NCBI GenBank assembly: GCA_947447625.1
Contig: CANFKS010000043.1
Location: forward strand, 1-33,560
From: Rhodospirillales bacterium
GTDB lineage: Bacteria; Pseudomonadota; Alphaproteobacteria; Acetobacterales; Acetobacteraceae
Direction: 5' to 3'
Length of the DNA: 33,560 nucleotides
The position numbers and the translations under genes are program-made. Shown one piece after another: positions 16-20,140 of the stretch; the stretch's first letter is position 1, and each line of letters opens with the position of its first letter. Below the pieces are notes generated by a model. That model ran no database searches and was not told the DNA's origin. It saw only the letters and a list, made by a program, of their open reading frames with translations.

Positions 16-1269
16 ATGAATATATTGCGGCGATCAATCAACAAGAGCTTGATGGTAATCCCGTTCTTAGGATCAAAAGTCGCGAATAGCGCAACGCGAC
101 CTCACTTTTACGCTGGCTGTTTTTATGATACGGCAGCACACCCCGAATCAACTCTGATGAAGCATCTTGTGACGCCGGAGAAGGTCTCCCGGCGCCTCGA
201 CGCGCAATCTGGAGGATCGGAACTGGGCCCACGTGCCCGCGAGGTCGTACAGAACCGACGAGACTTCCTCGAACGCGGCAATATCTCTCTCGCACAATCC
301 AAAGGCAACGCGGTAGTCCTTGGCGTCCAGCGCGCCCAGCATGAGACCATAACCATCAAGACTGCAGGCACACCTGACGAGTATGTCACCGTCGTCAGTG
401 TCACTGTCTCTCTTGATGTTATGACCGACCAGGCGGCTTTTCGAAACACCAACCGATTTGAATCCCTGTTCTCCACGATGCTCGTTGTTAACCAAGTCAT
501 ACAGGAGCGACAGCCGCCAACCGATGCAGCGCTGAACGTCCATTACGCGCGCGTGTTCTCCGAAGCCATCAACTCCATCCTCGATTCAACGGATGTTTTC
601 GTCGACAGCCGCGACCGAGCAAACGCCGTCTTCCAGATCAAGAACATGGTTCTGCCTGATCCGCTCACGCCAGAACTCGATCAGCTTGTCGTTTCGGCCC
701 TCAAAGCTGACGGCGACAACAGCGCTGATTCCCGGCGAGGCGAACTACGCAAATTGTCCCGCGAGTTTCAGCACATCTATAATCTTATGTTGCTCGATAG
801 TCTTAAGAAGGCCGGTGCGGCGCAAATCACTCTCCTGCCCCCCTCCTCACCCTGGTCGGAGGGGCGAGTTCTGCGTCAACTTCAACAACGCCTCGGCGTC
901 AGCGCGGAAATTCTTTCTGAGCCAGACCCTAACCGCATGAACGGATATGAGATCCGTGCTGGCATCACAGCCACAAATACGATCGGCCACGCAGGCAATA
1001 ATGTTGGCCGTACGATGCAATCCAACATCAGCCTTGCGTCGCGGATCGTACGAAACAAAGAGGGTACTCTCATTCACGTTCCCATAGGCATTAATACCGT
1101 GAACGAAAAAGTTGCTGTCGGCGTTGGCTTTGACACTTTCTCCGAAATCGCAGGATTGAGCCGTTCGGCGACGCGTGACGTCGTGATGCGCGCCTTTCGC
1201 AAGGGTGCTGCCGAAGTCGCAAACAGGATGGTTCCGCTGATTCTCAAGGTTGCGTCGGAAATCCACTAA
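16..1269 (+). CDS. Unknown envelope-associated protein, first gene of the eight-gene cluster
   Basis: I do not recognise this 417-residue protein. An in-frame TGA lies at 10-12, so the start cannot be upstream of this ATG. A modest AGAAG Shine-Dalgarno-like stretch precedes it. The N-terminus is basic (RRS..K) followed by a short hydrophobic run (LMVIPFLG), a weaker export signal than in the seven genes behind it. An ATG at 52 is an alternative start. Residues about 100-190 look beta-rich. The C-terminal 60 residues form an amphipathic helix (KGAAEVANRM) of the kind seen at the end of CsgG/LPP20-type domains, but I cannot assign a family. The next gene starts 16 bases after the stop, so the two are probably cotranscribed. 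The promoter, and any earlier genes, lie outside the window. Confidence 0.75.
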   Translation: MNILRRSINKSLMVIPFLGSKVANSATRPHFYAGCFYDTAAHPESTLMKHLVTPEKVSRRLDAQSGGSELGPRAREVVQNRRDFLERGNISLAQSKGNAVVLGVQRAQHETITIKTAGTPDEYVTVVSVTVSLDVMTDQAAFRNTNRFESLFSTMLVVNQVIQERQPPTDAALNVHYARVFSEAINSILDSTDVFVDSRDRANAVFQIKNMVLPDPLTPELDQLVVSALKADGDNSADSRRGELRKLSREFQHIYNLMLLDSLKKAGAAQITLLPPSSPWSEGRVLRQLQQRLGVSAEILSEPDPNRMNGYEIRAGITATNTIGHAGNNVGRTMQSNISLASRIVRNKEGTLIHVPIGINTVNEKVAVGVGFDTFSEIAGLSRSATRDVVMRAFRKGAAEVANRMVPLILKVASEIH

Positions 1270-1285
1270 CTCCTTGGAGACATCT

Positions 1286-2413
1286 ATGGGCCGGACTTCA
1301 ACATTCCTTTATACCGCGCTTTCAGTCGCCCTCGTTTCGAGTCCAGCACTGGCGCAGGACGAACGCGCTTTCCGCGCCGCGGGCGTCGCGACGACGTCCC
1401 AGAGTGCGATCGTCGAAGCCTACTATCAAGGCCTGGCGCGGGAACTCGCGCGCTTCGCCGGCGCCCAGGCCGAGGGAGACGTCGGGAAGCAATTCCGCCG
1501 TGACTTCGAACGGGACTTCGCAACGTTCAAGCAACGCTATTTTACACCTGACACCGATCACCGCTGCGTCGCCCGCGAAACGCGGTTTTCCTGCGAAGTG
1601 GAGGGGGCCATCAAGGTTCTTGCTGTCCAGACCGATTTCAACAAAATCATGAAAACAACGGAGCGGACGCTATCCAACTCCCTGACCTTCGTGGTCAGCG
1701 CCGCCGAGAGCAAGGATCGTAACTCGCCTCTCGTGGTCGAGAAGCTCACCGGAAGCTTCATCGAAAGTGGCTACAAGGTTCTATCAGGATCCGCCGTCAA
1801 CGCCGCGATCACGAATGGTTCTGTGGACTTCTCTCTCGGAATCCTCGGCCTGGAATTCTCCCCCGTTCAATTCGACGCTGGAGAGCAGCGGGCTTCGGGC
1901 TCGCTCACCGTCCGGTTCCGCGTCAACGACATCAAGGGCAAGACACAGGTCGCGTCCGTCCCGGTCACAGTCTCCGATACCGTCGCTGGCCCCAGTCTTT
2001 CAGTCACTCAGGCCGACCTCACGGCCAAACTCGCCGGTAAAGCCGCAGTGGAGATCAGTCGCAAGGTAAACGCCTCGCTCGTGTCGTTCCAGGTAGACAA
2101 AGGCGATGCCGCCGCAGCCCAGCAGAGGATGACTTCCGGACAGAAGCTTTACCTGATCAGGCTGGAGGGCGTGGCCCAGAAAGATCGTGAAAAAATCAAG
2201 CTCGTTCGCGACCTCGTTGCCAGTCAAGTGCGCGGGGCTACTGCCCAGGTCGATCCCTCCCAGTCGAACGCGACCCGCGTGACATTGAGTTTTGGCGTCA
2301 CGGGCACTTTAGATACTGAAAACCTGATCGACGCGCTTTATGCGCAGCACAAACACATTCCGTCTTTTGAGGCGACATACGCAGGAAACAATGAATTCAT
2401 TGTCCACTATTAA
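1286..2413 (+). CDS. Exported protein with FlgT/LPP20-like architecture
   Basis: The ATG at 1286 is chosen because GGAGA lies 5 bases upstream and it gives a clean type I signal peptide ending SSPALAQ, cleaved around residue 24. A start at 1250 would bury that signal. The mature protein (about 350 residues) opens with a helical stretch holding two cysteines (HRC..., FSC), then an alpha/beta region, and ends in a domain (about 290-375) that alternates strands with a long helix, as in FlgT or CsgG-like periplasmic proteins. That resemblance is structural inference, not a recognised motif. The coding sequence overlaps the next gene by 23 bases, which suggests translational coupling. A role as a periplasmic part of the cluster's assembly is likely; the specific function is unknown. 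Confidence 0.8.
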   Translation: MGRTSTFLYTALSVALVSSPALAQDERAFRAAGVATTSQSAIVEAYYQGLARELARFAGAQAEGDVGKQFRRDFERDFATFKQRYFTPDTDHRCVARETRFSCEVEGAIKVLAVQTDFNKIMKTTERTLSNSLTFVVSAAESKDRNSPLVVEKLTGSFIESGYKVLSGSAVNAAITNGSVDFSLGILGLEFSPVQFDAGEQRASGSLTVRFRVNDIKGKTQVASVPVTVSDTVAGPSLSVTQADLTAKLAGKAAVEISRKVNASLVSFQVDKGDAAAAQQRMTSGQKLYLIRLEGVAQKDREKIKLVRDLVASQVRGATAQVDPSQSNATRVTLSFGVTGTLDTENLIDALYAQHKHIPSFEATYAGNNEFIVHY

Positions 2414-2804
2414 GGTCTCGGCTGTTTTTCTCTTGTGCGTCAGCGTGCTGTGCGCTTGTGCACAAGAATTTCAGCCGCCGCAAATCGTCGTCGAAAAAAG
2501 GGTTGATGATCTTATCACCGTCAACGTCACTCATATAGGCGGGGTTCGCGTCGTTAATTCGTCCGTCTACCGCGTGAATGGGGCAACGCACGCGGATATC
2601 ACGATCTCGATCAATCCCAATGTGGCGCCAGCCAATTACGCGGCTCGGAGCACGTGGTTCAACGAGAAGGGAGAGATCATCCCTCAGGCGACAGACTTTG
2701 TGCAGATCGGGGATTTTCTGAATTTCACGATGAAGACGCTCACATGGAGGGCTCCTAATCCCCATGGGCATCATGTCGTGATCGACTTCTCGACTACCAA
2801 TTAA
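2391..2804 (+). CDS. YcfL-like (DUF1425) small exported protein
   Basis: The protein has 137 residues. The ATG at 2391 is preceded by AGGAAA and lies inside the end of the previous gene. The N-terminus is a signal sequence ending LCVSVLCACAQ. It could be processed as a lipoprotein at the last Cys (LCAC, an imperfect lipobox) or by signal peptidase I after ACA. The mature part is one beta-sandwich-sized domain with a central YAARSTWFNEKGE segment followed by a hydrophobic strand run. This closely resembles the pattern of E. coli YcfL, a periplasmic lipoprotein of about 125 residues encoded next to lpoB. A CsgG/LpoB-like gene in the same cluster (5709-6617) strengthens the assignment. The role of YcfL is not established, so none is claimed. 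Confidence 0.78.
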   Translation: MNSLSTIKVSAVFLLCVSVLCACAQEFQPPQIVVEKRVDDLITVNVTHIGGVRVVNSSVYRVNGATHADITISINPNVAPANYAARSTWFNEKGEIIPQATDFVQIGDFLNFTMKTLTWRAPNPHGHHVVIDFSTTN

Positions 2805-2836
2805 CCTCAATGCCAATCAGTGGCCGGAACAATAAA

Positions 2837-4186
2837 ATGAAGTCCCTTGCAAGATCAAGCATGAGCACCGCTAGCCTGGTATTCCTTGGGTTCGGCATGG
2901 TGGTGGCCAACTCTACGGACGCCGGCGCGCAAGGAGCACAAACCCCCGGCATGAACACCAGGGAGGTCGCGGCAGCGACGAGTTCCGCGCCCACAGCTCC
3001 CTCTAGAGCGACAAGCGTCCAAGCACGATGGACGGAGTGGCTTAAAACGACCGATCCACGAGCGCCGTTTATGGAAGGCTTCAACAATCGCTCTGACCTC
3101 GGTCGAGATCGGGTCTTCATTACCAGCGGGTTTGCGACCATCAGCGCAGACCCCGGCGATGATAAGTGGATCGCCGCGCGAAACTCCGCCTTCCAGCAGG
3201 CTGAGCTCGCTGCGAAGGCCAATCTGGCTAAAGCCGTAAAGCAATACGTTACGTCGCAGCGCAAAGTAGCCACCGACTCCGTAACCGGCCTGACGCAGGC
3301 CCAGACAGATGCAAAGACTGGTACCACCACTCCCGGACAGGCCACTCAAATCGATGTCGTCTCGACGACCGACAGTTCCGTCATCAAGGCGTCCCTGTTT
3401 GCCAGCGGCGCGTTTGTTGTCGCGGAATATCTGGGAAAGGATCAAGCGACCGGCAGACAAGCCGTGCTGATTGGCCTCATGACATCCCCCAAGCTGGAAA
3501 AGATCGCTGAATCCATCCTCAATCCGAGTCTGAAGCTGCCTGAAGCAGCACCAGCAGCCACACTCAGTGATCAGATCAGCGCGCTGGACACCGCAGATCC
3601 TTTCTGGCTCGCCAATACCAATGGCGTCCGCGTTTGGACTGACGAACTAGGGCAAAAAATCGTTATCGGATTTGGCCATGCACGGATCTCTTCAGGAATT
3701 TCTCAGGCGTATAAAGGCATCGCAGAACAGGCCGCTACGGTCGCGATCCAACGCTTCGTCGGCGAGATGACCACCACTGAATCTGAGAGTGAATCGTTGT
3801 TTTTAGCAACGTCGCAGGACGGAAAGGAAGAATCCTTTGAGAGCAATAAGTATAAGTCAATGGTTGAAGCCAAATCAAAGACGATGGTATTAAATGGGAT
3901 CGCGCCGCTGCACTCCTGGGCTGGCGAGCATCCTGAAGGTAGGGTCCGGTTCTACTCGGCGGCGATGGCATGGACGCCAAGTGGCGCGGCTGCAGCGCGC
4001 GCTGCCGATTCGAGTGCTCAAAGCCAGCAACAGAAGCTCAACGCGCTGAGCGATGGAACGCCCCAGCAGACGCAGCCTGGTGCCAACCCAGCCGCCGTGC
4101 TGCCACGCAGCAATAGCGGCACTGGCGCCGGTCCGTCCAGCGCCCCTATTCGCGGCGGTGCGACCAGCAATCCGACGCAGTTCTAA
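2837..4186 (+). CDS. Exported protein with two probable LPP20-like domains and a low-complexity tail
   Basis: The ATG at 2837 is preferred to 2810 because it has a GGA-type ribosome site 8 bases upstream and begins at the signal peptide (MKSLARSSM... to DAGAQ). The 449-residue product has a first domain at about 95-215 with the order strand (FITSGFATISA), then WIAARNSAFQQAELAAKANL, the 'ar..A...A...akanla' helix typical of LPP20/FlgT_N-type domains. A second segment at about 255-380 repeats the order: strand (IVIGFGHARIS) then a helix (IAEQAATVAIQRFVGEM). The last 70 residues are a Gln/Ser/Pro/Gly/Ala-rich disordered tail. I infer an internally duplicated periplasmic scaffold protein. DUF6844 is another possible family label but cannot be confirmed here. 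Confidence 0.8.
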   Translation: MKSLARSSMSTASLVFLGFGMVVANSTDAGAQGAQTPGMNTREVAAATSSAPTAPSRATSVQARWTEWLKTTDPRAPFMEGFNNRSDLGRDRVFITSGFATISADPGDDKWIAARNSAFQQAELAAKANLAKAVKQYVTSQRKVATDSVTGLTQAQTDAKTGTTTPGQATQIDVVSTTDSSVIKASLFASGAFVVAEYLGKDQATGRQAVLIGLMTSPKLEKIAESILNPSLKLPEAAPAATLSDQISALDTADPFWLANTNGVRVWTDELGQKIVIGFGHARISSGISQAYKGIAEQAATVAIQRFVGEMTTTESESESLFLATSQDGKEESFESNKYKSMVEAKSKTMVLNGIAPLHSWAGEHPEGRVRFYSAAMAWTPSGAAAARAADSSAQSQQQKLNALSDGTPQQTQPGANPAAVLPRSNSGTGAGPSSAPIRGGATSNPTQF

Positions 4187-4190
4187 CTCT

Positions 4191-4781
4191 ATGAAAACCG
4201 CCCGAACCAGAACGTTAACCGTCCTCGTTCGGGCGGCGCTCACCTGCGCGATTGGTCTTTGCTCATCCGCTGACAGCCCGGCGAATGAAGTTGACCAAAT
4301 AGTTCCATTTCTGACGCAAATATCGGGCGCAACCAGCATCCGCTATCCGGAAGGAACGATCGCAATCGCCTTCCAAGATATCCAGGCAGGCGGCAATCCC
4401 GCGACGGACGAACAACGCGCGGCCCATCTCTCCACGACAAAACTTACTGTCTTCTTGACACAACAACAGAATTTCAAGAACGCAGCCCTGAGTAGCGCGT
4501 ACCCGATCTGGACTAAGCGATTCTCCGTTGACGGCGCAACATATATACGAGTCGTCGTCGCATGTTGCGAACTGCTGTCACTCCATCAATCCGCAACTAT
4601 CGCAATGCTTGAAGCTCGATGGCCCGAGGCAGAGCGAAACTTCGGTTCTCGCCTCACACGTGCCTATCCACAGGGGGGCTCTCCACAGTCAGTGACGCCA
4701 TCGCTGATTGCGCCGTTCATGGCGGTCCCATCCATGGATGCACTCCTTGCTCCCTCAAAACCGACAGGCGCCGATCGATGA
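4191..4781 (+). CDS. Unknown exported protein, 196 residues
   Basis: I do not recognise this gene. The ATG at 4191 lies 5 bases after the previous stop and gives a signal peptide (MKTARTRTLTVLVRAALTCAIG, cleaved near SPA-NE). No good Shine-Dalgarno is visible, so translation may depend on coupling to the upstream gene. The mature protein is about 165 residues, with a mixed alpha/beta core, a hydrophobic strand followed by a Cys pair (VVVACCELL), and a Pro/Ser-rich C-terminus. The stop overlaps the next start in ATGA. Its position between two LPP20-like genes suggests it belongs to the same envelope assembly, which is contextual inference only. Confidence 0.72.
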   Translation: MKTARTRTLTVLVRAALTCAIGLCSSADSPANEVDQIVPFLTQISGATSIRYPEGTIAIAFQDIQAGGNPATDEQRAAHLSTTKLTVFLTQQQNFKNAALSSAYPIWTKRFSVDGATYIRVVVACCELLSLHQSATIAMLEARWPEAERNFGSRLTRAYPQGGSPQSVTPSLIAPFMAVPSMDALLAPSKPTGADR

Positions 4782-5698
4782 CTCGCTCTTTGATTCTTCT
4801 GCTCAGCCTAGCGCTGGCGACACCCCATTTGGCTTTTGCCTTCAGCGATAGCGATTGTTCGGCGGTTCTCCAGACAACAGTCCAGGTCAAGGAAGAATTC
4901 CAGACCGGCGAGACAATCGTGACCGTTCGGCTCCGCGCGCTTGATCGTGCATCCCAACTCGCTGTAGCAGAAAAAGTCGGCGTAACAATGCGGTCTCAGC
5001 GCTCCAGTGATGTCACGTCGGACAACAACGGGGATGCCCTGAAGTTTCGAGACCGCGCCATGGCGCAGTCAAAAGGCTTGGTCCGCTACAGAATTATAGA
5101 TGAATCGACCATCGACGCAGGGACTGCAAAGCAAATCATTTTATCAATTGACGCCAATGTCTGCATCCCGAAATCCCCGGACATCCTGAAACCTGTAATC
5201 ATGTTCGGAGACACATTATCCAGCCGCGGTCAGGAACTTCCTCTCTTCCGCGAGATACTAACGTCGATTTTTTCGAGCACTCAAAATTTCATTATCGCCG
5301 GGTCCGATCAGATCTTTCGCGACGCGGTCATAACCGGCCGGATCAATACCGTCGAGATCAAGACCGTCGAGAACGGGCCAAACCCAAGCTTGTCAGGCAA
5401 ACCGAGCGTGATCGGTGGCAAGGATCCTACCGCTTACCAAAAATTGACCGCCAGCATCACGTTGCAGGCCGCTTACGAGGACGGGGCGATTATCAGCACG
5501 ACGACGTTCGACACCGCGAATATTGCGATTAATGCCGACCCCGCTGACGCGATCACCAAGCGTATGCCTGAGTTTTTGAAGAAGGCTTCCCTTGAGCTTA
5601 TGGCGAAGATGGAGGCCAACAAAGCGAGTCAATTGGGTGGCAGTAACACCATTAAATCGACGCCTGCCGGCCCCAAATCCAACAAACCCACCTGGTGA
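4778..5698 (+). CDS. Exported LPP20/FlgT_N-like protein
   Basis: The ATG at 4778 overlaps the preceding TGA by four bases and starts a textbook signal peptide (MTRSLILLLSLALATPHLAFA). An upstream in-frame ATG at 4619 would destroy it. The 306-residue product has an N-terminal domain at about 30-135 that closely follows the FlgT_N/LPP20 layout: strand, helix with ASQLAVAEKVG, a charged loop (RSSDVTSDN), then paired strands (GLVRYRIIDE, QIILSIDANVCIP). A second alpha/beta region at about 140-280 includes a helix and strand (LFREILTSIF, FIIAG) and ends in an amphipathic helix (FLKKASLELMAKM), as in CsgG-like proteins. It is predicted to act in the periplasm, probably in a multimeric complex with its neighbours. 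No enzymatic motif is visible. Confidence 0.8.
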   Translation: MTRSLILLLSLALATPHLAFAFSDSDCSAVLQTTVQVKEEFQTGETIVTVRLRALDRASQLAVAEKVGVTMRSQRSSDVTSDNNGDALKFRDRAMAQSKGLVRYRIIDESTIDAGTAKQIILSIDANVCIPKSPDILKPVIMFGDTLSSRGQELPLFREILTSIFSSTQNFIIAGSDQIFRDAVITGRINTVEIKTVENGPNPSLSGKPSVIGGKDPTAYQKLTASITLQAAYEDGAIISTTTFDTANIAINADPADAITKRMPEFLKKASLELMAKMEANKASQLGGSNTIKSTPAGPKSNKPTW

Positions 5699-5708
5699 AG
5701 GATCATCC

Positions 5709-6617
5709 ATGCACTTCGTTAGATTACTCCTCGCCGGATCGAAAGCGGCGCTCATCGCTTCTCTTCTGATTGCCACGCACAATCCGAGCGCAGCCCAAAA
5801 CGACGACCGGCCCAGCGTTGCCGTCTATCCGACGATCGTGATCGACCAGTCGAAGGATGTCGTGTCGAAACTGAACGTCGATATCCAGGAGGTCACCCGT
5901 CAACTCGAGGAAGGGCTTCGCGCGACGCGTCGCTTCAAGATGTTCGAACGATCCTCGACCGTCATGGAGGCTTCTGTACTGAAAGAACAGGACTTTGCCA
6001 CTAATTCTCGCGCGCTTGGCGACGCCGCAGAATTTGGGAAGCTCAACAACGTAGGGCTCCTAGTGCAGCCAATCATCACTGGCTACAGCGTCCAGGGGGG
6101 TTCCAGGGAACTCCCAGACTTCCCCGGTAAATACGTCTCCAACCACAAAGCCATGCTCAGCGTCACTGTCAAAGTGCTCGACACAACGTCGGGTGAAATC
6201 AAATTTCAGACGACACAAACAGGCGATTTCTCCACTTCGTCAGGCGTTTCGGACGGACGCATGGGGCCACCGAGCAAGGATGCTTGGAACGGTATTGCCA
6301 AGACGGCTTCCCTCAAGATCACAAATGCCATCATCGGCTACATCTTCCCCGTGCTTGTGATCAAAGTTAATCCGAAAGATATATTTGTAAACCGCGGCGA
6401 GGGCGGCGGGATCGCCGTCGGGGAAGCTTACGACATCTTTTCAGCTGGGGAGGATATGATCGATCCAGTCACAAAAGAGAACCTCGGTTCCGCCGAGACA
6501 CTACTCGGGCGCGTGAAGGTGGAACGCGTGAACCCGAAATTCAGCGTTGTATCGATCGTTGGAAAACTCTCCGAAACGCCGAAAATTGGCGACATCCTCC
6601 GCAAACCATCAAAGTAA
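5709..6617 (+). CDS. CsgG/LpoB-like periplasmic protein with C-terminal FlgT_C-like domain
   Basis: The ATG at 5709 has an AAGGA ribosome site 7 bases upstream and a signal peptide ending NPSAAQ. There is no lipobox Cys, unlike E. coli CsgG and LpoB, so the mature 270-residue protein should be soluble in the periplasm. Residues about 35-215 match the CsgG/LpoB fold: a first strand VAVYPTIVID, the helix VTRQLEEGLRATRRFKMFERS, the strand VGLLVQPIITGY, and VKVLDTTSGEIKFQT. This is the standard 'v.v..vDt.tGei' signature. Residues about 220-302 carry a FlgT_C-like beta domain: VIKVNPKDIFVNRGEGGGIAVGE, a DPVTKENLGSAE turn, then VKVERVNPKFSVVSIV. Family members build outer-membrane pores (CsgG), activate PBP1b (LpoB) or form flagellar H-ring parts (FlgT). 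Which applies here is unknown. Confidence 0.85.
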   Translation: MHFVRLLLAGSKAALIASLLIATHNPSAAQNDDRPSVAVYPTIVIDQSKDVVSKLNVDIQEVTRQLEEGLRATRRFKMFERSSTVMEASVLKEQDFATNSRALGDAAEFGKLNNVGLLVQPIITGYSVQGGSRELPDFPGKYVSNHKAMLSVTVKVLDTTSGEIKFQTTQTGDFSTSSGVSDGRMGPPSKDAWNGIAKTASLKITNAIIGYIFPVLVIKVNPKDIFVNRGEGGGIAVGEAYDIFSAGEDMIDPVTKENLGSAETLLGRVKVERVNPKFSVVSIVGKLSETPKIGDILRKPSK

Positions 6618-6626
6618 GGTCTAACA

Positions 6627-7304
6627 ATGAACATCTTAAAATCTCTCGCCATAGCGGGACTCACGACGCTCATTTCCTTTTCCGCGCAGGCTCAGTTTGG
6701 TGGCTTCACCATCCCTGGCGTAGGCGGTGGATCCGGCGGTTCTTTTGGAGCGACTGCTAAGATATATTCGGTAAACGTAGTCACCGGGATGTTGAACACG
6801 GTGCGCGGCGTCGAGTTCGCACAACGCGCGTCTGGGAAAAAGGCAGAGGCAGACAAGCTTGGCGCAATCGCTAAGGAAATCGAAGGGATGAAGGAGCCGA
6901 AGGCCGACATTCTCGAGAAATCGATGAAGGCGGTTGAAGCCAACCCGGTTGATCGAAGCGCAATCGCTGCTGTGAAATCGGCCGAAGGCAAGGCTATGCT
7001 CACAGTCGCCACCAAACACATGATCGTCGCCGGCGTTTACGTTCAAATGGCGGTTGCTAACGCCAGTTCACTCGCAGGCATGAAGCCTGGGCCCATGGAC
7101 GTCTTGTCCGCACCTAGAATTATAGAAGCGGTGAGCATCACCGCTCAACATGGCCCCACCATCGTCAGCAACGGCGGCGAATACCTCTCCGTGCTGACGT
7201 CTTATCTGTCTAGCAATGGCATGCAGAAGCCCTCGACTGCGGACTGTGTCGCCGTTGCCAAGCAAACCGACCCTGACGCGGCCAGCAAAGGCGCCAGCTT
7301 CTAA
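6627..7304 (+). CDS. Unknown exported helical protein, last gene of the cluster
   Basis: The 225-residue protein starts 9 bases after the previous stop and has a clear signal peptide (MNILKSLAIAGLTTLISFSAQAQ). A Gly-rich linker (about 25-40) follows, then an almost entirely helical body rich in Ala, Lys, Glu and Met, with a charged helix around KKAEADKLGAIAKEIEGMKE and later hydrophobic helices (MIVAGVYVQMAVANASSL). One Cys lies near the C-terminus. No family is recognised. A strong hairpin terminator follows 11 bases after the stop, which makes this the last gene of the transcript. A role as an adaptor or filler subunit of the complex would be speculation. Confidence 0.78.
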   Translation: MNILKSLAIAGLTTLISFSAQAQFGGFTIPGVGGGSGGSFGATAKIYSVNVVTGMLNTVRGVEFAQRASGKKAEADKLGAIAKEIEGMKEPKADILEKSMKAVEANPVDRSAIAAVKSAEGKAMLTVATKHMIVAGVYVQMAVANASSLAGMKPGPMDVLSAPRIIEAVSITAQHGPTIVSNGGEYLSVLTSYLSSNGMQKPSTADCVAVAKQTDPDAASKGASF

Positions 7305-7315
7305 CTTACGAAAAG

Positions 7316-7348
7316 GCCCTCGCCTGGTGTGAGCCAGGTGAGGGCTTT
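7316..7348 (+). terminator. Rho-independent terminator of the eight-gene cluster
   Basis: A 12-bp stem (GCCCTCGCCTGG at 7316-7327 with CCAGGTGAGGGC at 7334-7345, one G-T pair) with a 6-base loop is followed by TTT. An AAAA run at 7311-7314 on the other side would give a T-run in the opposite direction, so it may work both ways. Confidence 0.85.
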
Positions 7349-7369
7349 CGATAGATACTTGATTCTTTC

Positions 7370-7547
7370 CCGCCGCCTTACGAGCCGATCGCCAGTTGTA
7401 AAGCAGGATCTCCGAAATCCCGAGTCGTCGCGCCACCAACCGAACCTTGCCGCCTTCGGCATCGATCTCCGCCAGAAACGCCGCCGTCTCCCGTGCACTC
7501 CATATCCGACGCCGATCCGAAGGTGCCAGAATTTCTACTTCCGTCAA
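7370..7547 (-). pseudogene. IS66 tnpA fragment (N-terminal about 59 residues)
   Basis: The fragment encodes an N-terminal helix-turn-helix region. Key motifs are RRRIWSARETAAFLAEI, VARRLGISEILLYNW and then RSARKAA, matching IS66 TnpA, where LYNWRSAWKAAA is common. Beyond KAAG the frame runs into unrelated DNA including the terminator. An AGGAGG-type ribosome site precedes the ATG on the minus strand. It is a non-functional remnant. Confidence 0.75.
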
Positions 7548-7643
7548 ACATACCTCCTTCGGGAGTCAAGAGAGGCGTTCCAGAGATCAGCAAAATCGCA
7601 GGGTTTCGCATGCTTCGCTACACGGCGAAGACCAGACGCTTAC
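7370..7643 (-). mobile_element. Truncated IS66-family element (left end only)
   Basis: Read on the minus strand, the terminus starts at 7643 with GTAAGCGTCTGGT, the conserved IS66-family inverted-repeat start. After about 95 bases comes the 5' part of tnpA. Homology stops near 7370, so the rest of tnpA, tnpB, tnpC and the other end are missing. The break lies about 25 bases from the cluster terminator, suggesting that a deletion joined this IS fragment to the eight-gene locus. The terminus lies inside a short reading frame that starts at 7684. Confidence 0.75.
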
Positions 7644-7684
7644 AGCGGGATGACCACCGTCAGCGTTTGACCGTCGGCGCTCAT
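7644..7684 (-). pseudogene. Start of a small gene behind the recombinase, interrupted by the IS66 end
   Basis: The ATG at 7684 overlaps the TGA of the recombinase remnant (ATGA), a usual arrangement for the short gene that follows large serine recombinases in alphaproteobacterial elements. Only 13-14 codons (MSADGQTLTVVIPL) remain before the IS66 terminus. The product is unknown. Confidence 0.45.
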
Positions 7685-8016
7685 GCCGCCACCCTCTCGG
7701 TGCCGGTATTTCGCGCCTCAAGGTCGCGCACCAGACTGCCGAGCCCGTCCAGTCGCAGCGGCACCGCGGCGCCGTCGGCGCGCACGTCGACACGGTCGAC
7801 CAGTAACCGGACGATCCGCGCCTTCTCGGCATAGAACAACTCGTCCCACAGCGGCTCGATCCGCTCCAGCGCCCGCAGCACCTTGTGCTCGGTGACGTCC
7901 GACGCCGCCGTCCGCGCCGCTCGCCAGGTGCAGACCACCACCTCGGGCTGCCGCAGCAGCGCGCCGACCTGCGCCACGACTGCCGTCTCGATCTCCCCGG
8001 CAGCCGTTGTCCGTCC
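7681..8016 (-). pseudogene. C-terminal remnant of a large serine recombinase
   Basis: About 110 codons remain open from 8016 to the stop at 7681. Characteristic tail motifs of resolvase-type integrases are visible: an [17 protein letters not shown] segment, then PEVVVCTWRAAR, LERIEPLWDELF, AEKARIVRLLVDRVDV and LRLDGLGSLVRDLEA. The catalytic N-terminal resolvase domain and the zinc-ribbon region are absent. The 5' side is replaced by an IS630 fragment at about 8020. Such recombinases mobilise prophages and integrative elements, so this is a trace of a former mobile element, not an active gene. Confidence 0.78.
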
Positions 8017-8021
8017 CCTTC

Positions 8022-8216
8022 AGCACGGCCTGGCTGCCCAAATACGCGCCGGGGTTAAACGACATCGAAACCGTTTGTCGCGACCTTAAAGCCCATCACC
8101 TCGCTCACCAAACCTTCGCCAACGCCGACGCCCTTGACCAAGCCATCCATAAAGCCCTCCACGCGCTCAATTCAGAGCGCATGCCCGTTCCGTTCGACGG
8201 GCTGCGAAGCTCTGCT
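8022..8216 (+). pseudogene. IS630-family transposase C-terminal fragment, copy 1
   Basis: The frame encodes the last part of a DDE transposase: WLPKYAPGLNDIETV (with the terminal catalytic Glu), CRDLKAHHLAHQTFANA, ALDQAIHKALHALNSERMPVP. The upstream two-thirds are missing. Bases 8031-8216 match 10637-10822 without gaps over 186 bases and with high identity (about 85% by eye). The shared homology stops at the same point in both copies, which probably marks the right end of the original element. Here a TA dinucleotide (8218 region) follows, as expected for an IS630 target, although the second copy lacks it. Confidence 0.72.
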
Positions 8217-8217
8217 T

Positions 8218-8605
8218 ACCGCAGCGGAAACCCTGGAAAAGCTAAAGGCATTGATCCGCAGCCTCGACGAGAAGCAGGGGCGTCCGGCGTGGGAAGGGTA
8301 GGACCAAGGACCAGCTGACGATCTGCGATCCACCGACCCGGCCGGAGCTGACGAAGGCGCAGGACCAGGACGTCAAAAAGATCGCCCGCGCGCTCCTCCA
8401 ACGCCGTCACGAAAAGGTTGCCGTGTTCGAGTGGCACAAGCGGCGACAGACGCGGGACGACGTTCGCTGCGCCATCGAAGAGGTGCTGAACGGGCTCCCA
8501 CAGGAGCCCTATCCCGACGATCTATGGAAGGCGAAGGTGGAGGCGACCTGGGACTTCGTGTTCGCCAATTCACAATGGCGACCGGGCGCCATGTCAGCTG
8601 GTTGA
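8218..8605 (+). pseudogene. C-terminal remnant of a type I restriction endonuclease subunit (HsdR)
   Basis: The conserved HsdR tail is readable from about 8300 to the stop at 8605: LTKAQDQDVKKIARALL, a KVAVFEWHKRRQTRDDVR segment, AIEEVLNGLP and YPDDLWKAKVEATWDFVF. This matches the usual '..kLvldWr.kqqtra.Vr.aIe.vLd..Lp..Y....y..K' end of the R subunit. The preceding stretch (8218-8300) continues the family's helix (AAETLEKLKALIRSL) in another frame, so a frameshift lies near 8290. The motor and nuclease domains are gone, and an IS630 fragment abuts the 5' side. No hsdM or hsdS is present, so this is a dead remnant. Confidence 0.6.
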
Positions 8606-8786
8606 TCTTGCTCGGCCAGAAAAAATTCTGAAATTTCCGCGGGGGTGTGTCTTCGAACCCCCACCCCCCCGTTCGCGGCTATGGGCAGGGGGGGAGGCCC
8701 AGCTGCCGCGGAGCCGGCGGAGCCGTGGCGCGATGTCCTGGACGATGGACGATGACAGGATATGCTCGCCACGGGAGGGACAGGGC
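8606..8786. other. Short gap without a gene
   Basis: This stretch contains C and G homopolymers and a small hairpin (GGGGGT at 8641-8646 with ACCCCC at 8657-8662), but no supportable coding sequence. Confidence 0.5.
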
Positions 8787-9451
8787 ATGTGTGGCAAGTT
8801 CACTCAGATGGCCTCATGGGCCACGGTTCACGCCTTCAGCCAGCAACTCGATGCCGCGCCGGCCGGAGCCGCAGACGGGAGAAACGACACCGAGGAAACT
8901 GTCACGCCGATGCGCTGGGCTCACACCTTGCGTCTGGACGAAGACGGGCTGCTGGCAGTTTGCCGATGCGCTGGGGTTGGCCGGACCTTTGGCGAGGCGG
9001 CCCTGCAAACCGGCCGAAGCACATGCACGCCAAGGCCGAGACGATTGACCGCCTCCCTACATTCACCTCGAGCTTCCATGCCGGGCGCCGCGGTATCCTC
9101 CCGATGCGCATTTTCAATGTTGGAGAGGAGATCGGCCGCAAAGTCGTGCAGCACACGCTGACGCCACGAGACGGCGTGATCCTCGGGGGCGCATGCATCT
9201 TCGACCTGGTGCCCGAGTCAGATGGCTCGATGGCTCTGGCGTTCGTGATGGTCACCACGGCACCAAACCCGCTCATCGCCACCGTCACCGACCGTATGCC
9301 GGCGCTGCTGCGTCCGGAGGATTGGGGGATCTGGCTAGGTGAGGACGGTGCGACTGCGAGAAATGCCAAGGCTATCCTGCGACCCTATGCCGGCGAACTC
9401 GACATGGTGCTTCAACCCAAGCCACCACCACAAAATCGACTGACGTTCTAA
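8787..9451 (+). pseudogene. SRAP (SOS-response-associated peptidase, YedK/HMCES-like) gene with a frameshift
   Basis: The ATG at 8787 gives MCGKFTQM, the family's start in which Cys2 becomes the N-terminal nucleophile that crosslinks abasic DNA. The frame breaks near 8960: the first 57 codons continue into SLPMRWGWPDLW only after a -1 shift. Later parts read AKAETIDRLPTF, the strand ILGGACIFDLV, and FVMVTTAPNPLIATVTDRMPALL, as in SRAP proteins. Two usual active-site residues are altered: the Asn of NARAET is His (HAKAET), and the His before RMP is replaced (TDRMP). It may be a decayed gene, a divergent SRAP subgroup, or a sequencing error. It sits alone among mobile remnants. Confidence 0.7.
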
Positions 9452-9830
<379 letters not shown>

Positions 9831-9847
9831 AGTGGCGCCGGCGCCGC

Positions 9848-9876
9848 GTTATAGGGACTGTGGGAAATCGCCGCAA
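9848..9876 (-). promoter_or_regulatory. Sigma-70-type promoter for tRNA-Ser
   Basis: On the minus strand TTGCGG (9871-9876), a 17-base spacer and TATAAC (9848-9853) lie 17 bases upstream of the mature tRNA 5' end at 9830. Box match and spacing are good. Confidence 0.65.
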
Positions 9877-9949
9877 TGCCTGTTCGTCGTCGCATGGCGA
9901 GAATCAGCATGCCCCCCATAGGCGTGGGGCCACCCATGACAGATCGGGG

Positions 9950-9978
9950 TTGCATGACGAAGCGCAAATCGGTAGGAC
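9950..9978 (+). promoter_or_regulatory. Possible promoter for tRNA-Thr
   Basis: TTGCAT (9950-9955), a 17-base spacer and TAGGAC (9973-9978) lie 22 bases before the tRNA 5' end. The -10 box is imperfect. Confidence 0.4.
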
Positions 9979-10000
9979 GGGCTTGCCGCGTATGGCGCTC

Positions 10001-10075
<75 letters not shown>

Positions 10076-10225
10076 TTTTCCATTACGAATATCGCAGTTT
10101 TCGCGCCTTACGATGGGAAGCTTTGTGTCTACCCGGTGTGATGTGGCATGAACGGGACGCGAACGCTATCGAATGACTGGTAAATCCCCTCTTTCGGCAC
10201 CCCCGGGACAGCAATCTGAATTGGC

Positions 10226-10822
10226 ATGGCGGGCTGGACGAGCGGGCGGATTGCCGAGCCGTTTGGCTTTCGGGAAGATGCGGTTCGGCTCTGGCGCAGC
10301 GATTTCATGATGGGCGGCGTCGAGGTGTTGAAGGCCGTTTTCGCCCCCGGTCCTGCGCCGGCGAAGAGCGAAGCGGCGCTTCGGGTGGCCATGCCGTTGC
10401 TGGCCGCCCCCGTCGACGACCGGCCGAACCGGACCATTCCGCGCCTGCGCGCCGAGATCGAAGCGCGCGGAGGCGTGAGCATCAGCCGCTCGCAACTCTC
10501 CAAGGTGCTACGAAAAAAAACCTCCGCTGGCGGCGTCCGCGGCACACGCTGAAGGGGCGCCAGATCGCCGCCGAAGTCGAAAGGGTCGGTCTGCGCCTTC
10601 GCAAATGCTGCGCGCGCTCACTGGCTCATCGTCGAATGGCTGCCTAAATGCGCGTCGGAGCTGAACGACATCGAAACCGTTTGGCGCGACCTCACAGCCC
10701 ATCCCCTCGCTCACCAAACGTTCTCCAACGCCGATGCGCTCGACCAAGCCATCTATAAAGCCTTCCACACTCTCAATTCAGAGCGCATGCCCGTTCCGTT
10801 GGACGGGCAGCGAAGCTCTGCT
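10226..10822 (+). pseudogene. IS630-family transposase remnant, copy 2, frameshifted and internally deleted
   Basis: The N-terminal helix-turn-helix region is present (AGWTSGRIAEPFGFREDAV, RLWRSDFMMGGVE, TIPRLRAEIEARGG, ISRSQLSKVLRKK). At an A8 run (10513-10520) the frame breaks. A -1 shift continues as NLRWRRPRHTLKGRQIAAEV, so this may be either a relic of programmed frameshifting or a lost A. Near 10605-10620 the sequence jumps out of frame straight to the C-terminal part (AHWLIVEWLPKCASELNDIE), deleting the first catalytic Asp residues. Bases 10637-10822 are the counterpart of 8031-8216. It cannot encode an active transposase. An in-frame TGA at 10217 limits the N-terminus. Confidence 0.78.
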
Positions 10823-10823
10823 G

Positions 10824-10925
10824 AGAGCCTGATGCTTTTTGGCGGAATCGGCAAAAAGCATCAGGCTCTCAAACAAACAGTTAGAGCCGGGTGCCCCAGG
10901 TGCTGCAAATGAAGGCACCCATGCT
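10824..10925. repeat. Two-hairpin palindromic repeat, copy 1
   Basis: Hairpin A has perfect 18-bp arms (10824-10841 and 10852-10869, starting AGAGCCTGATGC) and a 10-base loop. A linker CAAACAAACAGTT follows, then hairpin B with arms AGAGCCGGGTGCC (10883-10895) and GGCACCCATGCT (10914-10925), which pair with mismatches. The layout and much of the sequence recur at 31290-31387. Hairpin B touches the stop codon of the minus-strand peptidase gene, so the element could also end that transcript. It begins immediately after the IS630 remnant. Confidence 0.8.
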
Positions 10926-12262
10926 CATTGCGCAGCGATCGCAGGCGTGCAGGTCAAGGACGCCCCGGCCAGCCGGTCATGCCGCCGCCAGGCCCCGAGA
11001 TAGGACTGCCGAGGCCTCGCCCGCCCAACGATGCGGCCGAGCCACCCGGCCTCGGCCTCGGCCGCCTCCGCCCAGCAGGCTGCCACGGCTGCGCGGCGCT
11101 CCGCCCCCGGCGCCGCGATCAGCGGCTCTACGCGCGCGATGAAGCGCGCCTCAAGCGCATCGCGTTCCGGCCCGATGTCGGCCATGGCGGCGGGATAGTC
11201 GGTCAGCAGCGCGCGATGCAGCACCTCGTGGCGCCACCACAGCGTCTCGCCATCGAATGCATCGCCCGGAATGGCGCCCTGGTCCGGCAATCCATCGGCG
11301 ACGAACACCGGCTTGAACACTGACGTACACGGGGCCGATGTCCCGGTCACCCAATGCAGCGCCCCCGCGCCGCGGAGGTCACTGACTATCGAGCCGACAG
11401 ACTGGCCACGCCGGGTCCCGTCGGCGGCATGCATGCAGATCGTAGCCCCGACAATATCGGCAGGGTGAAAGCCGGGCCCGTCGAGCCCGCCATGATCGCG
11501 CAGATAGGACATCATCGACGCCGGCGTGATCTTCCCGGCATCTGCGCCCAGCCGCAGCGTCGCCCGCGCACACCGCGCCTGCGCAACCGGCAGGCCCGGA
11601 TTGTCGGGGTTGGTGACGGCGCCGGCGAAGTCAAACGCATTGCCACCACACCAGCCCTGGGCACGCGCGAAAGCCTCCAGATCAGCGCTCGCCGATGTTG
11701 GCGTCGTGATGGTGTAGGTATTGGAAATCGCCCGCGTCGTCCCGGCCCGCTCCACCGCCCAGCGCCGGCCGATCGTCTCCAGCACAAACACCTCGTCACG
11801 GTCTGCGATGATGAACGAATTGTCGTAGAACCGCGTCGCCATATGCCCACAACTGCCACCCTGACCATGCGCCTCGAGCAGCCCGGTGATCACATCGACC
11901 GCCTGCGCCGCCGTCGCTCCGCGTTCAAGCCCGAGCCGCAGCAGGTCCATGCCGATCAGCGCCCGCTGGCGCTGAGGCAGCGCGCGGGGATGGACCGCTT
12001 CATTGCCGATCACCACGCCATGCTCGTTGGCCCCCATCTCGGCGCCCCAGATCCAGAACGGCCGGCTGAGCAGCACCGCATGGGTGCGTGCGGCTTGCGG
12101 GATCGCGATGTAGGTACACCGAACCACCGCGCCCCGCCCATAGGACTGCGCCGGCAGCAGTTGCAGATACTGAGCCTCGTTGCGCTCGCGATCGCTGTTC
12201 TTGGCAAACAGCGTGCCGCCCGTGCTGGTCGCCACGCCACGGGCCGCCATGGTGTCGCACAT
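10925..12262 (-). CDS. C69-family peptidase, secernin-like
   Basis: The 445-residue protein begins MCDTMAARG and continues GGTLFAKNSDRERNEAQ, the hallmark of C69 (Ntn-hydrolase) dipeptidases and secernins. Removal of Met would expose Cys2 as the N-terminal nucleophile. Further family features include the FWIWGAEMGANEHGVVIGNE region and SNTYTI. A strong GGGAGG ribosome site lies before the ATG. No signal peptide is present, so it is presumably cytoplasmic. Family members hydrolyse dipeptides, but substrates of secernin-type bacterial members are mostly unknown. It is transcribed away from the decarboxylase gene, across a gap of about 495 bases, and ends at the palindromic repeat. Confidence 0.88.
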   Translation of the reverse strand: MCDTMAARGVATSTGGTLFAKNSDRERNEAQYLQLLPAQSYGRGAVVRCTYIAIPQAARTHAVLLSRPFWIWGAEMGANEHGVVIGNEAVHPRALPQRQRALIGMDLLRLGLERGATAAQAVDVITGLLEAHGQGGSCGHMATRFYDNSFIIADRDEVFVLETIGRRWAVERAGTTRAISNTYTITTPTSASADLEAFARAQGWCGGNAFDFAGAVTNPDNPGLPVAQARCARATLRLGADAGKITPASMMSYLRDHGGLDGPGFHPADIVGATICMHAADGTRRGQSVGSIVSDLRGAGALHWVTGTSAPCTSVFKPVFVADGLPDQGAIPGDAFDGETLWWRHEVLHRALLTDYPAAMADIGPERDALEARFIARVEPLIAAPGAERRAAVAACWAEAAEAEAGWLGRIVGRARPRQSYLGAWRRHDRLAGASLTCTPAIAAQ

Positions 12263-12757
12263 GCTGGAACCTCCCCGGATAAGACCGCGATTGGGCTATG
12301 GATCAGCCGTCGTGGCAAGCCTCCGCCTGCGTCTCCAACTGGGCGCTGACCTCTGACCCCACCGCCACCGCGTAACGCGACAGCCAAAACCAAGCCGTCG
12401 CGCCCGCCCCCGCGGCCTGGCCGCGATGCGGTGCGCACCGATTCGATCGAACACCTGCAAAATCGAGCGCCCTGAGGAGGCAGACGCACGTGTCATATCT
12501 CGTATTTCTGCCCCCATGCGGCGCAAGCAGACCAGAATTTCGCCCTCCAATAAAAAACGGACAAAAAATCGCTTGCGTGGGGGGGGGGAGGGTCCTATGT
12601 CGGCCTCCACGCAGCAACGCACGTGCCTCTGCCCCCCGGGGTTACGCAACGACGTCAAGCGTTCTGGCAATCGTCTGGTCGCTGGTTCGTTCGACCGTTT
12701 CGCAATCATCGCGCGCCGCCTCGGTTTGGGCGCGATTTATAGGGGAGTACACGTGCG
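12263..12757. other. Divergent intergenic region with a G10 tract
   Basis: About 495 bases separate the divergent peptidase and decarboxylase genes and should contain both promoters, though none is convincing. One plus-strand frame starts with GTG at 12490 behind a good AGGAGG (12475-12480), crosses a run of ten G (12579-12588) and ends at 12789 inside the decarboxylase gene. It would encode 99 residues without recognisable features. It is low-confidence as a gene but might be a leader frame. Confidence 0.35.
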
Positions 12758-13888
12758 ATGACACCCAAGATCGCCCGTTACCTGGCTGATAACCGTCCGG
12801 CAACGCCGTGTCTGGTTCTGGATGTGGATCGTGTGGAAGAAAACTTCCGCGCCATTCGCGATGCGCTGCCTTTGGCGCGCGTCTACTATGCAGTGAAGGC
12901 CAATCCGGCCCGCCCGATTCTGGAGCGTCTTGTGAAGCTCGAGTCCAGTTTCGATGCGGCCAGCTTCGAGGAAATTGCCGCCTGCATGGCCGCCGGCGCC
13001 ACCCCCTCCGCGATCAGCTACGGCAACACCGTCAAAAAGGTCTCGGCGATTCGTGCCGCCCATCAAGCCGGCGTCACGATGTTCGCCTTCGATTCGGCCG
13101 AGGAGCTTGAAAAACTGGCCGCCAATGCCCCTGGTGCGCGCGTCTATTGCCGTATCCTGGTCGGCAACGAGGGCGCGGACTGGCCGCTGTCGCGCAAATT
13201 CGGCACCACCGTCGAACTCGCGCGGGACCTGATGCTTCGCGCAGCCGACATGGGCCTTGACCCGTACGGCCTCTCCTTCCATGTCGGCAGCCAGCAGACC
13301 TCGACTGCCTCCTACGAAGCGGCGATCGGCAAGGTCGGCATGCTGTTCACCGACCTCAAGGACGCTGGCGTCAACGTCCGCATGGTCAATCTCGGCGGCG
13401 GCTTCCCCATCCGCTATCGCGACGAGGTCCCCGGCATCGATGCTTTCGGCAACGCCATCATGCACGCCATGATAGACTGCTTCGGCAACGCGCTGCCTGA
13501 AATGGTGATCGAGCCCGGCCGTGCCGTGGTTGGCAGTGCCGGCCAGGTGCAAGCCGAAGTGGTGCTGGTCAGCCAGCGCGACCCGGCCGATCCCGTCCGC
13601 TGGGTCTATCTCGATATTGGTCGCTTCGGCGGTCTGGCCGAAACCGAGGGCGAATCGATCAAATACCAGTTCGCCACCCCGCATGACGGCACCCCGATGG
13701 GTCCTGTCGCTCTCGCCGGCCCCACCTGCGATGGCGCCGATATCCTCTACGAGCGCAGCAACTACCGCCTGCCCCTCGCCCTGAAGTCGGGCGACGAGAT
13801 TTCGATCCTCTCGACCGGCGCCTATGTCACAACCTACGCCAGCCAGAGCTTCAACGGTTTTGCTCCCCTGGCTGAACACTACATCTGA
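12758..13888 (+). CDS. Ornithine-type decarboxylase, fold III PLP-dependent
   Basis: The 376-residue protein has the alanine-racemase-fold decarboxylase layout. The PLP lysine is in YYAVKANP (Lys47), SFHVGSQ has the ring-stacking His (about 175), GGGFP (213-217) binds the phosphate, and E252 in EPGRA contacts the pyridine nitrogen. C324-D325 in GPTCDGAD is the catalytic and substrate-selective loop from the partner subunit. The Cys-Asp-Gly and Asp pattern fits ornithine decarboxylase, giving putrescine from ornithine. Some close relatives also accept lysine, so substrate is not certain. Length matches the short alphaproteobacterial/eukaryotic class and not the 700-residue fold-I enzymes. GGGGAG lies 10 bases before the ATG. 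Confidence 0.9.
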   Translation: MTPKIARYLADNRPATPCLVLDVDRVEENFRAIRDALPLARVYYAVKANPARPILERLVKLESSFDAASFEEIAACMAAGATPSAISYGNTVKKVSAIRAAHQAGVTMFAFDSAEELEKLAANAPGARVYCRILVGNEGADWPLSRKFGTTVELARDLMLRAADMGLDPYGLSFHVGSQQTSTASYEAAIGKVGMLFTDLKDAGVNVRMVNLGGGFPIRYRDEVPGIDAFGNAIMHAMIDCFGNALPEMVIEPGRAVVGSAGQVQAEVVLVSQRDPADPVRWVYLDIGRFGGLAETEGESIKYQFATPHDGTPMGPVALAGPTCDGADILYERSNYRLPLALKSGDEISILSTGAYVTTYASQSFNGFAPLAEHYI

Positions 13889-14000
13889 CGCGCACCGTGC
13901 CGCCGGCCCTCTGGCCTGCGGCACGGATGCCGCTATGCTGACCCCACCAGCCCCAAGGCCACAGAGCCTCGGCTGAATGACGGTCGCAAGGATATTTCCA

Positions 14001-15251: not shown

Positions 15252-15266
15252 CCGCCGGAGATAACC
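15241..15266. repeat. 13-bp perfect tandem duplication over a stop codon
   Basis: GCCGGAGATAACC occurs twice in direct succession (15241-15253 and 15254-15266). The first copy contains the TAA stop of the CoA-transferase. Confidence 0.9.
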
Positions 15267-15274
15267 GCCTGAAC

Positions 15275-15299
15275 CCCCGGGAGGATCACCCTCCCGGGG
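15275..15299 (+). terminator. Probable terminator of the CoA-transferase gene
   Basis: A perfect 10-bp stem (CCCCGGGAGG with CCTCCCGGGG) and a 5-base loop lie 23 bases after the stop. There is no T-run, so termination may be weak or need Rho. Confidence 0.5.
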
Positions 15300-15336
15300 C
15301 GCTGCGCAGAGAGAGGTGGCCCTCTTCGTCTGAACG

Positions 15337-15357
15337 GTGTGATGATCGCCATCACAC
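15337..15357 (-). terminator. Possible terminator behind infC
   Basis: A perfect 8-bp stem (GTGTGATG and CATCACAC) with a 5-base loop lies about 45 bases downstream of the infC stop on the minus strand. No U-tract follows. Confidence 0.35.
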
Positions 15358-15402
15358 GGGTTAACAGCCTCAGCGTAAGATACGCGCTGCCGAGGATTTC
15401 GA

Positions 15403-15939
15403 TCAGCGCGGGCTCAGCACCATCACCATCTGGCGATTTTCCATCCGCGGCATCTGCTCGACCTTGGTTGCCGTATCCATATCCGCGCGGATCCGTTCGA
15501 GCACCTTCACGCCAAGTTCCTGATGGGCCATTTCACGACCACGGAAGCGAAGCGTCACCTTCACCTTGTCGCCCTCGTCGATAAACGTCTTCATCGCACG
15601 CAGCTTAACCTGGTAGTCGTTCTCATCGATATTCGGGCGCACCTTGATCTCTTTGATCTCGATGACCTTTTGCTTCTTCTTGGCCTCATTCTTCTTTTTC
15701 TGAAGCTCGTACTTGTACTTCCCGAAATCGAGAATCTTGACCACCGGTGGCTCAGCGTTCGGGCTGATCTCAAGCAGATCGAGGCCGACGGCATAAGCGC
15801 GCTGGAGAGCTTCACGGGCGGTCATCACGCCCTGCATTTCGCCGTCCTGGTCGATCAGACGAACCTGGGGAAGGCGGATGTCTTCGTTGACACGTGGCCC
15901 GTCGCGGGTCGGGGGCGCGGGCAGAGGGGGTCTGGCTAT
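15403..15939 (-). CDS. infC: Translation initiation factor IF-3, apparently starting at AUA
   Basis: IF-3 binds the 30S subunit, prevents 50S joining and checks the start codon. The N-domain has GPRVNEDIR and [20 protein letters not shown]; the linker is [18 protein letters not shown]; the C-domain has [16 protein letters not shown] and [18 protein letters not shown]. The first ATG (15837) would remove about 34 residues, including the RVNE.IR segment always present in IF-3. Upstream of it the frame stays open to a TAA at 15958-15960 and contains no ATG, GTG or TTG in the right place. An AGGAGA ribosome site sits 6 bases before an ATA at 15937-15939. Starting there gives 178 residues beginning [10 protein letters not shown], the family's normal length. 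Rare start codons in infC support autoregulation in E. coli (AUU). Confidence 0.92.
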
Positions 15940-19435: not shown

Positions 19436-19444
19436 TATCGCCGG

Positions 19445-20119: not shown

Positions 20120-20140
20120 CAGCGAGAAAGCGCTTCCTTC

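Follow-up and report, generated by a model that had tools for sequence, protein, structure and literature searches.

A packed block of eight exported-protein genes in a Rhodospirillales genome: a possible ring scaffold of the FlgT-CsgG-LpoB kind

The stretch of DNA considered here (the window), 33,560 nucleotides long, makes up all of contig 43 in the genome assembly (4.28 Mb, 197 contigs; G000) of a Rhodospirillales bacterium. It starts at a contig edge, and 15 bases further on begins a block of eight plus-strand open reading frames (ORFs), P1 to P8, packed into positions 16-7304 with intergenic gaps of 16, -23, 32, 4, -4, 10 and 9 bases. In order, they encode P1 (16-1269), a 417-amino-acid (aa) protein of unassigned family with a twin-arginine type signal; P2 (1286-2413), an exported protein of 375 aa with a FlgT-like multi-domain fold model; P3 (2391-2804), a small exported protein of 137 aa with a lipobox-like LCAC; P4 (2837-4186), an exported, distant relative of DUF6844 proteins of 449 aa; P5 (4191-4781), exported, 196 aa, its gene overlapping that of P6 by 4 bases; P6 (4778-5698), exported, 306 aa, with some 120 conserved N-terminal residues; P7 (5709-6617), exported, 302 aa, joining a CsgG/FlgT_M-type domain to a FlgT_C/TsaP-type C-terminal domain; and P8 (6627-7304), exported, 225 aa, in which a Gly-rich stretch is followed by a conserved region. 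The start codons of P2-P7 are internal ATGs that we picked. A simple heuristic based on hydrophobicity and AxA assigns an export-type N-terminus to each of the eight products. The first-pass annotation, which had described a one-direction cluster with gaps or overlaps of at most 32 bases and seven signal peptides, was thus right about the packing (gaps of -23 to +32) and about export but one short in its count, P1 being exported too. The strong terminator that it placed at the end stands in part: the hairpin 3' of P8 (7309-7350, plus strand), a probable transcription end, has a computed stability of -32.3 kcal/mol (z -7.4), equalled by none of 200 shuffles, but its U-tract is short and it is absent from the output of a consensus terminator scan.

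That this packing of exported-protein genes is more than chance, and partly follows a conserved order, is confirmed by comparison of predicted genes across genomes. Three loci, L054, L055 and L056, carry P1-P2-(P3 slot)-P7-P8 in the order of the window, followed by a gene for a FlgT-like protein; since their P1, P2 and P8 proteins are 58-79% identical among themselves, the loci are not copies of one strain. Whole-genome searches covered P1, P2, P4, P6 and P7, and the sample counts given with the single proteins further below include G000. Among 96 relatives of one carrier (G793), the P1 profile matched only the genomes of L054-L056, G793 included, and the P2 profile matched six of 111 relatives of the genome of a further locus, L021, itself included, three of the six being those of L054-L056. 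L052 has P2 with a caspase-fold gene on a 4-kb contig, and L053 has P2 only, on a 3-kb contig. A search of genome contigs with a P4 alignment (a single-sequence P4 search of the contigs found nothing) led to L021, in a Hyphomicrobiales metagenome-assembled genome, and to L022 and L023, both in Methylobacterium. The order in L021 is P2 homologue (27% identity, E 1e-47), caspase-fold protein, P4 homologue (32%, E 2e-52), FlgT-like protein and P7 homologue (44%, E 2e-73), whereas in both Methylobacterium loci and in genome G318 a protein with the P6 N-terminus directly precedes the P4 homologue. More widely, P4/DUF6844-type genes adjoin FlgT-like genes in L011, L012, L021, L033 and L036, and P6-type genes in L019, L022 and L023. 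Altogether, P1, P2, P4, P7 and P8 have clear homologues (27-47% identity, E 1e-19 to 1e-124). The proposal that co-occurrence might be conserved is thus borne out for much of the gene order, and the possibility that this order exists in no other genome is contradicted by the clusters of L054-L056 and L021. We infer that P1-P2-P3-P7-P8 may be the core of the window block and P4-P5-P6 an insert in it. A remnant of the FlgT-like gene was looked for in the window, and the FlgT-like proteins of the relatives match there at P7 only. Upstream of P1, L056 has a tRNA-Thr gene, with 429 bases between that hold no ORF of at least 130 aa; a 113-aa ORF overlaps the tRNA. Plasmid searches with P4, P1, P2, P8 and the P2 protein of L021 found none, and viral contigs searched with the P2 and P7 profiles gave no confirmed relative; no support was seen for a phage or defence role of the block.

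Which of the products resemble known families? In Pfam scans of the eight proteins P7 alone passes a cut-off; none passes the curated cut-offs of NCBIfam, and PADLOC at E 0.01 gave no match. P7 reaches 29.3 bits with CsgG (PF03783; cut-off 20.8), covering positions 30-155 of the 210 of the profile, and its L055 homologue, at 19.4 bits, falls just under. The C-terminal part of P7 matches the TsaP chains 6ve2 (E 1.5e-7) and 3jc8 in the Protein Data Bank (PDB), and in profile comparison P7 scores 99.5% with a FlgT-like profile and 63.9% with that of LpoB. The CsgG-like and FlgT-like parts named by the first-pass annotation therefore hold, the latter through this C-terminal domain and, as a likeness, the fold model of P2; its LPP20-like part does not, as the Pfam LPP20 model matches no window protein, and its likeness to LpoB lacks a Pfam match (PF13036) in any of the eight but retains the profile score of P7. 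Five homologues share 28-44% identity with P7. Searches with P7 alone found it in six of 60 relatives, with a strong match in genome G037 (E 1e-38), and those with its profile in nine of 385 class genomes at 1e-10 and in none of the 347 genomes from the order to which G318 belongs at 1e-12; PHROGs gave one weak family without known function (E 0.0062) and plasmids one weak Azospirillum match. CsgG carries a lipidation cysteine, and P7 has no cysteine at all and is thus not lipidated as CsgG is.

The CsgG match raises the idea that P7 and its partners form a pore or collar of CsgG/HfaB type that secretes or anchors a protein of the cell surface, for which the Gly-rich P8 or an unlinked substrate would be candidates. 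An alphaproteobacterial anchor of this kind exists: excerpts of PMC6707917 present HfaB as CsgG-like and on the periplasmic side. A possible surface substrate lies beside the L055 cluster, where a Gly-rich ORF of 1026 aa with a signal-like start runs in the opposite orientation (14318-17395), but such a neighbour was seen at only one of the three clusters. Given also the partial CsgG match, the missing cysteine, the lack of any curli-type family match among the eight proteins (Pfam and NCBIfam scans, with no curli subunit and no CsgE/F) and the presence in G000 of two other, higher-scoring CsgG loci, we regard this explanation as unlikely. Those two loci, L015 15230-17259 (contig C87) and L016 8783-16799 (contig C32), have neighbours that by eye are curlin-like or repetitive exported ORFs.

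P4, by contrast with P7, passes no family cut-off: PF20891 (DUF6844) has no match above cut-off in P4 or in its L022 relative, and LPP20 in Pfam no match in P4, which also lacks cysteine. Its profile nevertheless scores 99.3% against a DUF6844-type set of four proteins (two DUF6844 proteins from L011 and L012, in genomes G022 and G029, and two similar, unscanned ones from L033 and L036, in G139 and G248) and matches the PDB entry 4qvr at E 2.3e-7, so that profile comparison places it as a distant relative both of the DUF6844 proteins and of the solved structure 4QVR. Proteins of L019, L021, L022 and L023 are 30-32% identical to P4, and its profile was found in four of 289 genomes at 1e-8 and, among five of the genus, in its own only. 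The N-terminal ~120 residues of P6 are common to Methylobacterium-type proteins (phmmer 1e-12 to 1e-15; hhalign 97.2%), the genes of which directly precede a P4 homologue; the P6 search matched two of 385 class genomes, its own included. The exported-protein clusters L033 7033-13822 and L036 4524-11010 contain, besides FlgT-like and P4/DUF6844-like genes, genes for proteins of 371/379 aa and 457/479 aa for which no family is given; P8 was suspected by eye to be related to the 457/479-aa pair, and profile comparison did not confirm it.

In G029 and G022 (loci L011 and L012), the DUF6844 and FlgT-like genes come after LpoB, and the G037 cluster is headed by a P7 homologue and includes DUF1425, LpoB and MltC-type genes. 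These three neighbourhoods make a link to the cell wall a live rival, namely that the block regulates peptidoglycan synthesis or couples outer membrane and wall, as LpoB does with YcfL; the LpoB score of P7 points the same way. The window block itself, however, has neither an LpoB match nor a wall enzyme, and the YcfL likeness of P3, suspected by eye, was unconfirmed: hhalign gave 2.9% (E 0.016, collinear) with a DUF1425 protein, 0.35% with E. coli YcfL and 0.9% with the family profile, none of them significant, and PF07233 (YcfL/DUF1425) matched neither P3 nor its three counterparts in L054-L056. A wall role therefore seems rather improbable to us. Besides its CsgG-like protein, DUF1425, LpoB and a lytic transglycosylase of MltC type, the G037 cluster (L010 7031-12382) encodes a lipoprotein-like ORF of 560 aa and an exported protein of 140 aa that by eye resembles LPP20.

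P2 is present in seven genomes, its own included (1 of 289, its own only, in one search), at 40-43% identity to three homologues and 27-29% to three more, and its C94 and C103 are invariant in all seven aligned sequences. An AlphaFold model built from this alignment (pLDDT 79.7, pTM 0.49) ranks the LPHT ring 8z5n first (E 5.1e-8) and FlgT, 3w1e, second (E 1.4e-7) in the PDB; among viral structures two matches lie at E <=0.001, one being with a phage protein that bears the name CsgG. As excerpts of PMC6504787 describe an H ring formed by FlgT and FlgO in Vibrio, P2 might contribute to an accessory structure of H-ring type on the flagellar motor of this organism, and FlgI is indeed found in G000, G791 and G793, and in 10 of the 15 genomes examined. 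Yet FlgI went undetected in four of the seven P2-bearing genomes (G763, G803, G806 and G809, of unknown completeness), G803 having the P1-P8-FlgT-like order, and no flagellar gene exceeds a cut-off among the scanned cluster proteins. We consider a flagellar accessory quite improbable.

The remaining products have less to connect them with any family. P1 has homologues in L054, L055 and L056 (42-47% identity, E 1e-113 to 1e-124), in which the twin-arginine signal is plainer than in P1 itself, and Cys35 is invariant across the four; no match above curated cut-off was found in Pfam or NCBIfam and none in PHROGs, PADLOC or the PDB, and its AlphaFold model (pLDDT 35.4) gives no usable fold. P8 is 33-36% identical to its homologues in the same loci (E 2e-29 to 2e-33) and matches no Pfam or NCBIfam family. 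Of the three proteins that occupy the corresponding position in L054-L056, one or two appear weakly linked to P3: the phmmer E-values of 0.0017 (L055) and 0.072 (L056) both rank above all 2100 shuffled controls, whereas that of L054 (E 6.6, rank 15 among the controls) does not; the P3-slot proteins of L054 and L056 align with that of L055. For P5 no relative was found in Pfam and NCBIfam (at cut-offs), PHROGs or PADLOC, and none convincing by profile comparison, whole genomes not having been searched.

In two of the relatives, a protein matching the caspase fold (PF00656) is encoded directly after P2, at 60.5 bits in L021 and 72.8 bits in L052. Active caspases have the motifs SGH and DxC. Both are absent from the proteins of L021 and L052 and from the two plasmid relatives that were aligned, out of 222 plasmid records with relatives of the L021 domain, and the partner is probably not an active protease, judging from these residues. 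Caspase-fold proteins without the His/Cys motifs lie at L021 7742-9853, L052 1749-3728, L064 5953-8310 and L065 5854-8187; that of L052 matched nothing among PDB sequences at E 0.1. Unlike L021 and L052, the window block has no caspase-fold gene. Bacterial caspase homologues are the topic of PMC3501461, as far as its excerpts indicate.

The block differs from its surroundings in composition, with a GC content of 55.7% as against 65.5% from 10.9 kb on, and transposase remnants lie at its border (7071-8318): HTH_Tnp_1 at 34.5 bits in the minus-strand ORF 7071-7547 and DDE_3 at 30.7 bits in the plus-strand ORF 8007-8318. Searches of four congeners found no P4 and no P7. Together, the GC drop, the remnants and these negative searches make horizontal gain probable, and it is the simplest reading of the block. 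The clusters of L054, L055 and L056 deviate by 0.2, 1.3 and 3.6 GC points from the whole stretches containing them. The same signs, with the contig edge, might instead betray an assembly chimera or a decaying, functionless foreign island, but the eight frames are uninterrupted and compact, five products are clearly conserved, and function is compatible with island origin; we hold this to be highly unlikely. A diverged repeat of 186 nt (89%) pairs 8031-8216 with 10637-10822, and the window has genes for tRNA-Ser (9741-9830) and tRNA-Thr (10001-10075). A tRNA-Thr gene lies near the cluster in three genomes, those of the window, L056 (8008-8082) and L021 (14879-14954), without bracketing repeats. 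Integration anchored at the tRNA was considered and rejected: a 12-base word from the window's tRNA-Thr has a single further copy (9143), which lies between the block and the tRNA gene and so does not bracket the block. Further along (8762-27654) come chromosomal genes, among them those for a SRAP peptidase, threonyl-tRNA synthetase, an RND efflux pump, and RodA-type and PBP transpeptidase proteins.

Taken together, by sequence and structural model, the block is a real, partly conserved and probably mobile operon with at least two products of FlgT/CsgG type. What might these products build? Just short of an even chance, in our estimate, is that the block specifies an undescribed periplasmic or outer-membrane ring scaffold of the FlgT-CsgG-LpoB kind, with a role in the cell envelope. 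This proposal draws on the conserved clusters in L054-L056 and L021, on the LPHT ring and FlgT heading the PDB matches of the P2 model, on the FlgT-like and LpoB profile scores of P7, and on the several loci in which P4/DUF6844-type genes adjoin FlgT-like or P6-type genes. P2 and P7 would oligomerise by way of their middle domains, of CsgG/LpoB type, to give rings that are stacked or concentric, joined in the relatives by the FlgT-like subunit, for which P6 may perhaps stand in within the window; P4 would be a further layer and P3 a possible small anchor, P1, exported by the Tat route, would arrive folded or loaded with a cofactor, and P8 might decorate the ring or be held by it. The structure anchored or stabilised by such a ring would span the envelope or lie at the surface, and it would be neither the flagellum in general nor classical curli, a restriction suggested by the undetected FlgI in four of seven P2-bearing genomes and by the cysteine-free P7. 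A broader proposal, which we advance more tentatively, is that of a horizontally spread alphaproteobacterial machine making non-flagellar, non-curli outer-membrane rings from FlgT/CsgG-fold subunits together with P1, P8 and, in relatives, the inactive caspase-fold protein.

Several results weigh against the ring scaffold. P7 of L054 and L056 ends at about P7 residue 212, without the FlgT_C/TsaP-type domain, and the profiles of P2 and P6 have no significant FlgT link (3.4% for P2 over 223 columns; 20.8%, E 0.0011, for the P6 N-terminus against the FlgT-like N-terminal domain); both points lower our confidence. The P2 model has TM-scores to whole FlgT of only 0.27-0.31 (Foldseek) at its pTM of 0.49, chains of LptE, PelC, CsgG and others likewise match it over single domains, and the P2 profile scores 3.4%, not significant, against that of P7 as well. 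Low TM-scores and non-significant profile matches are the reason why a FlgT-like fold is claimed for P2 as a likeness of its model, and not a common assembly. The L054-L056 clusters showed no P4, P5 or P6; P1, in 10 genomes chosen for P4-, P6- or P7-type genes, appeared in its own and in one chance-level match (E 0.325); no link to ring folds was found for P1, P5 and P8, nor for P3; and three of the seven P2-bearing genomes do have FlgI. Of the earlier suggestion of several related subunits there remains the likeness of P2 and P7 at fold level, but all-against-all phmmer matched no two different proteins of the eight. The idea that the assembly may be undescribed fares better: a literature search, mostly outside subscription journals, found no paper using the terms DUF6844 or COG3014, none joining three of LpoB, CsgG, FlgT and FlgO, and none joining TsaP with FlgT, but that the products assemble, and where, is itself inferred.

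FlgT-, CsgG- and LpoB-type folds are parts of a few known machines. Should the ring scaffold prove true, a mobile operon that unites ring modules of these types with no flagellum, curli or wall enzyme nearby would show them at work in other envelope structures as well; P1, P2 and P8 add new protein families and come with linked genes, and DUF6844 is given a concrete genomic setting. Compared with CsgG/HfaB systems, the block shares a middle domain, in P7, that exceeds the CsgG cut-off, but P7 lacks a lipid-anchor cysteine and matches in part, and no curli partner is recognised in the block, the comparison being with CsgG alone. With FlgT and the LPHT ring (3w1e, 8z5n) it shares the FlgT_C/TsaP-type end of P7, and the P2 model resembles them in overall fold; it differs in that no flagellar gene is recognised in the clusters, P2 lacks a significant profile link and some carriers show no FlgI. 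The E. coli LpoB-YcfL locus differs by its LpoB, the window having no LpoB match or wall enzyme and in P3 an unproven YcfL likeness; shared by that locus and the G037 cluster with the window is the clustering of small exported proteins with proteins of LpoB/CsgG fold. P4, finally, has no PF20891 match of its own but resembles by profile the DUF6844 family and 4qvr, a Francisella hypothetical protein (FTT_1539c) from what databases predict to be one operon, FTT1537c-FTT1540c, according to excerpts of PMC4696196, and in two genomes of the same family DUF6844 genes lie between LpoB and FlgT-like genes.

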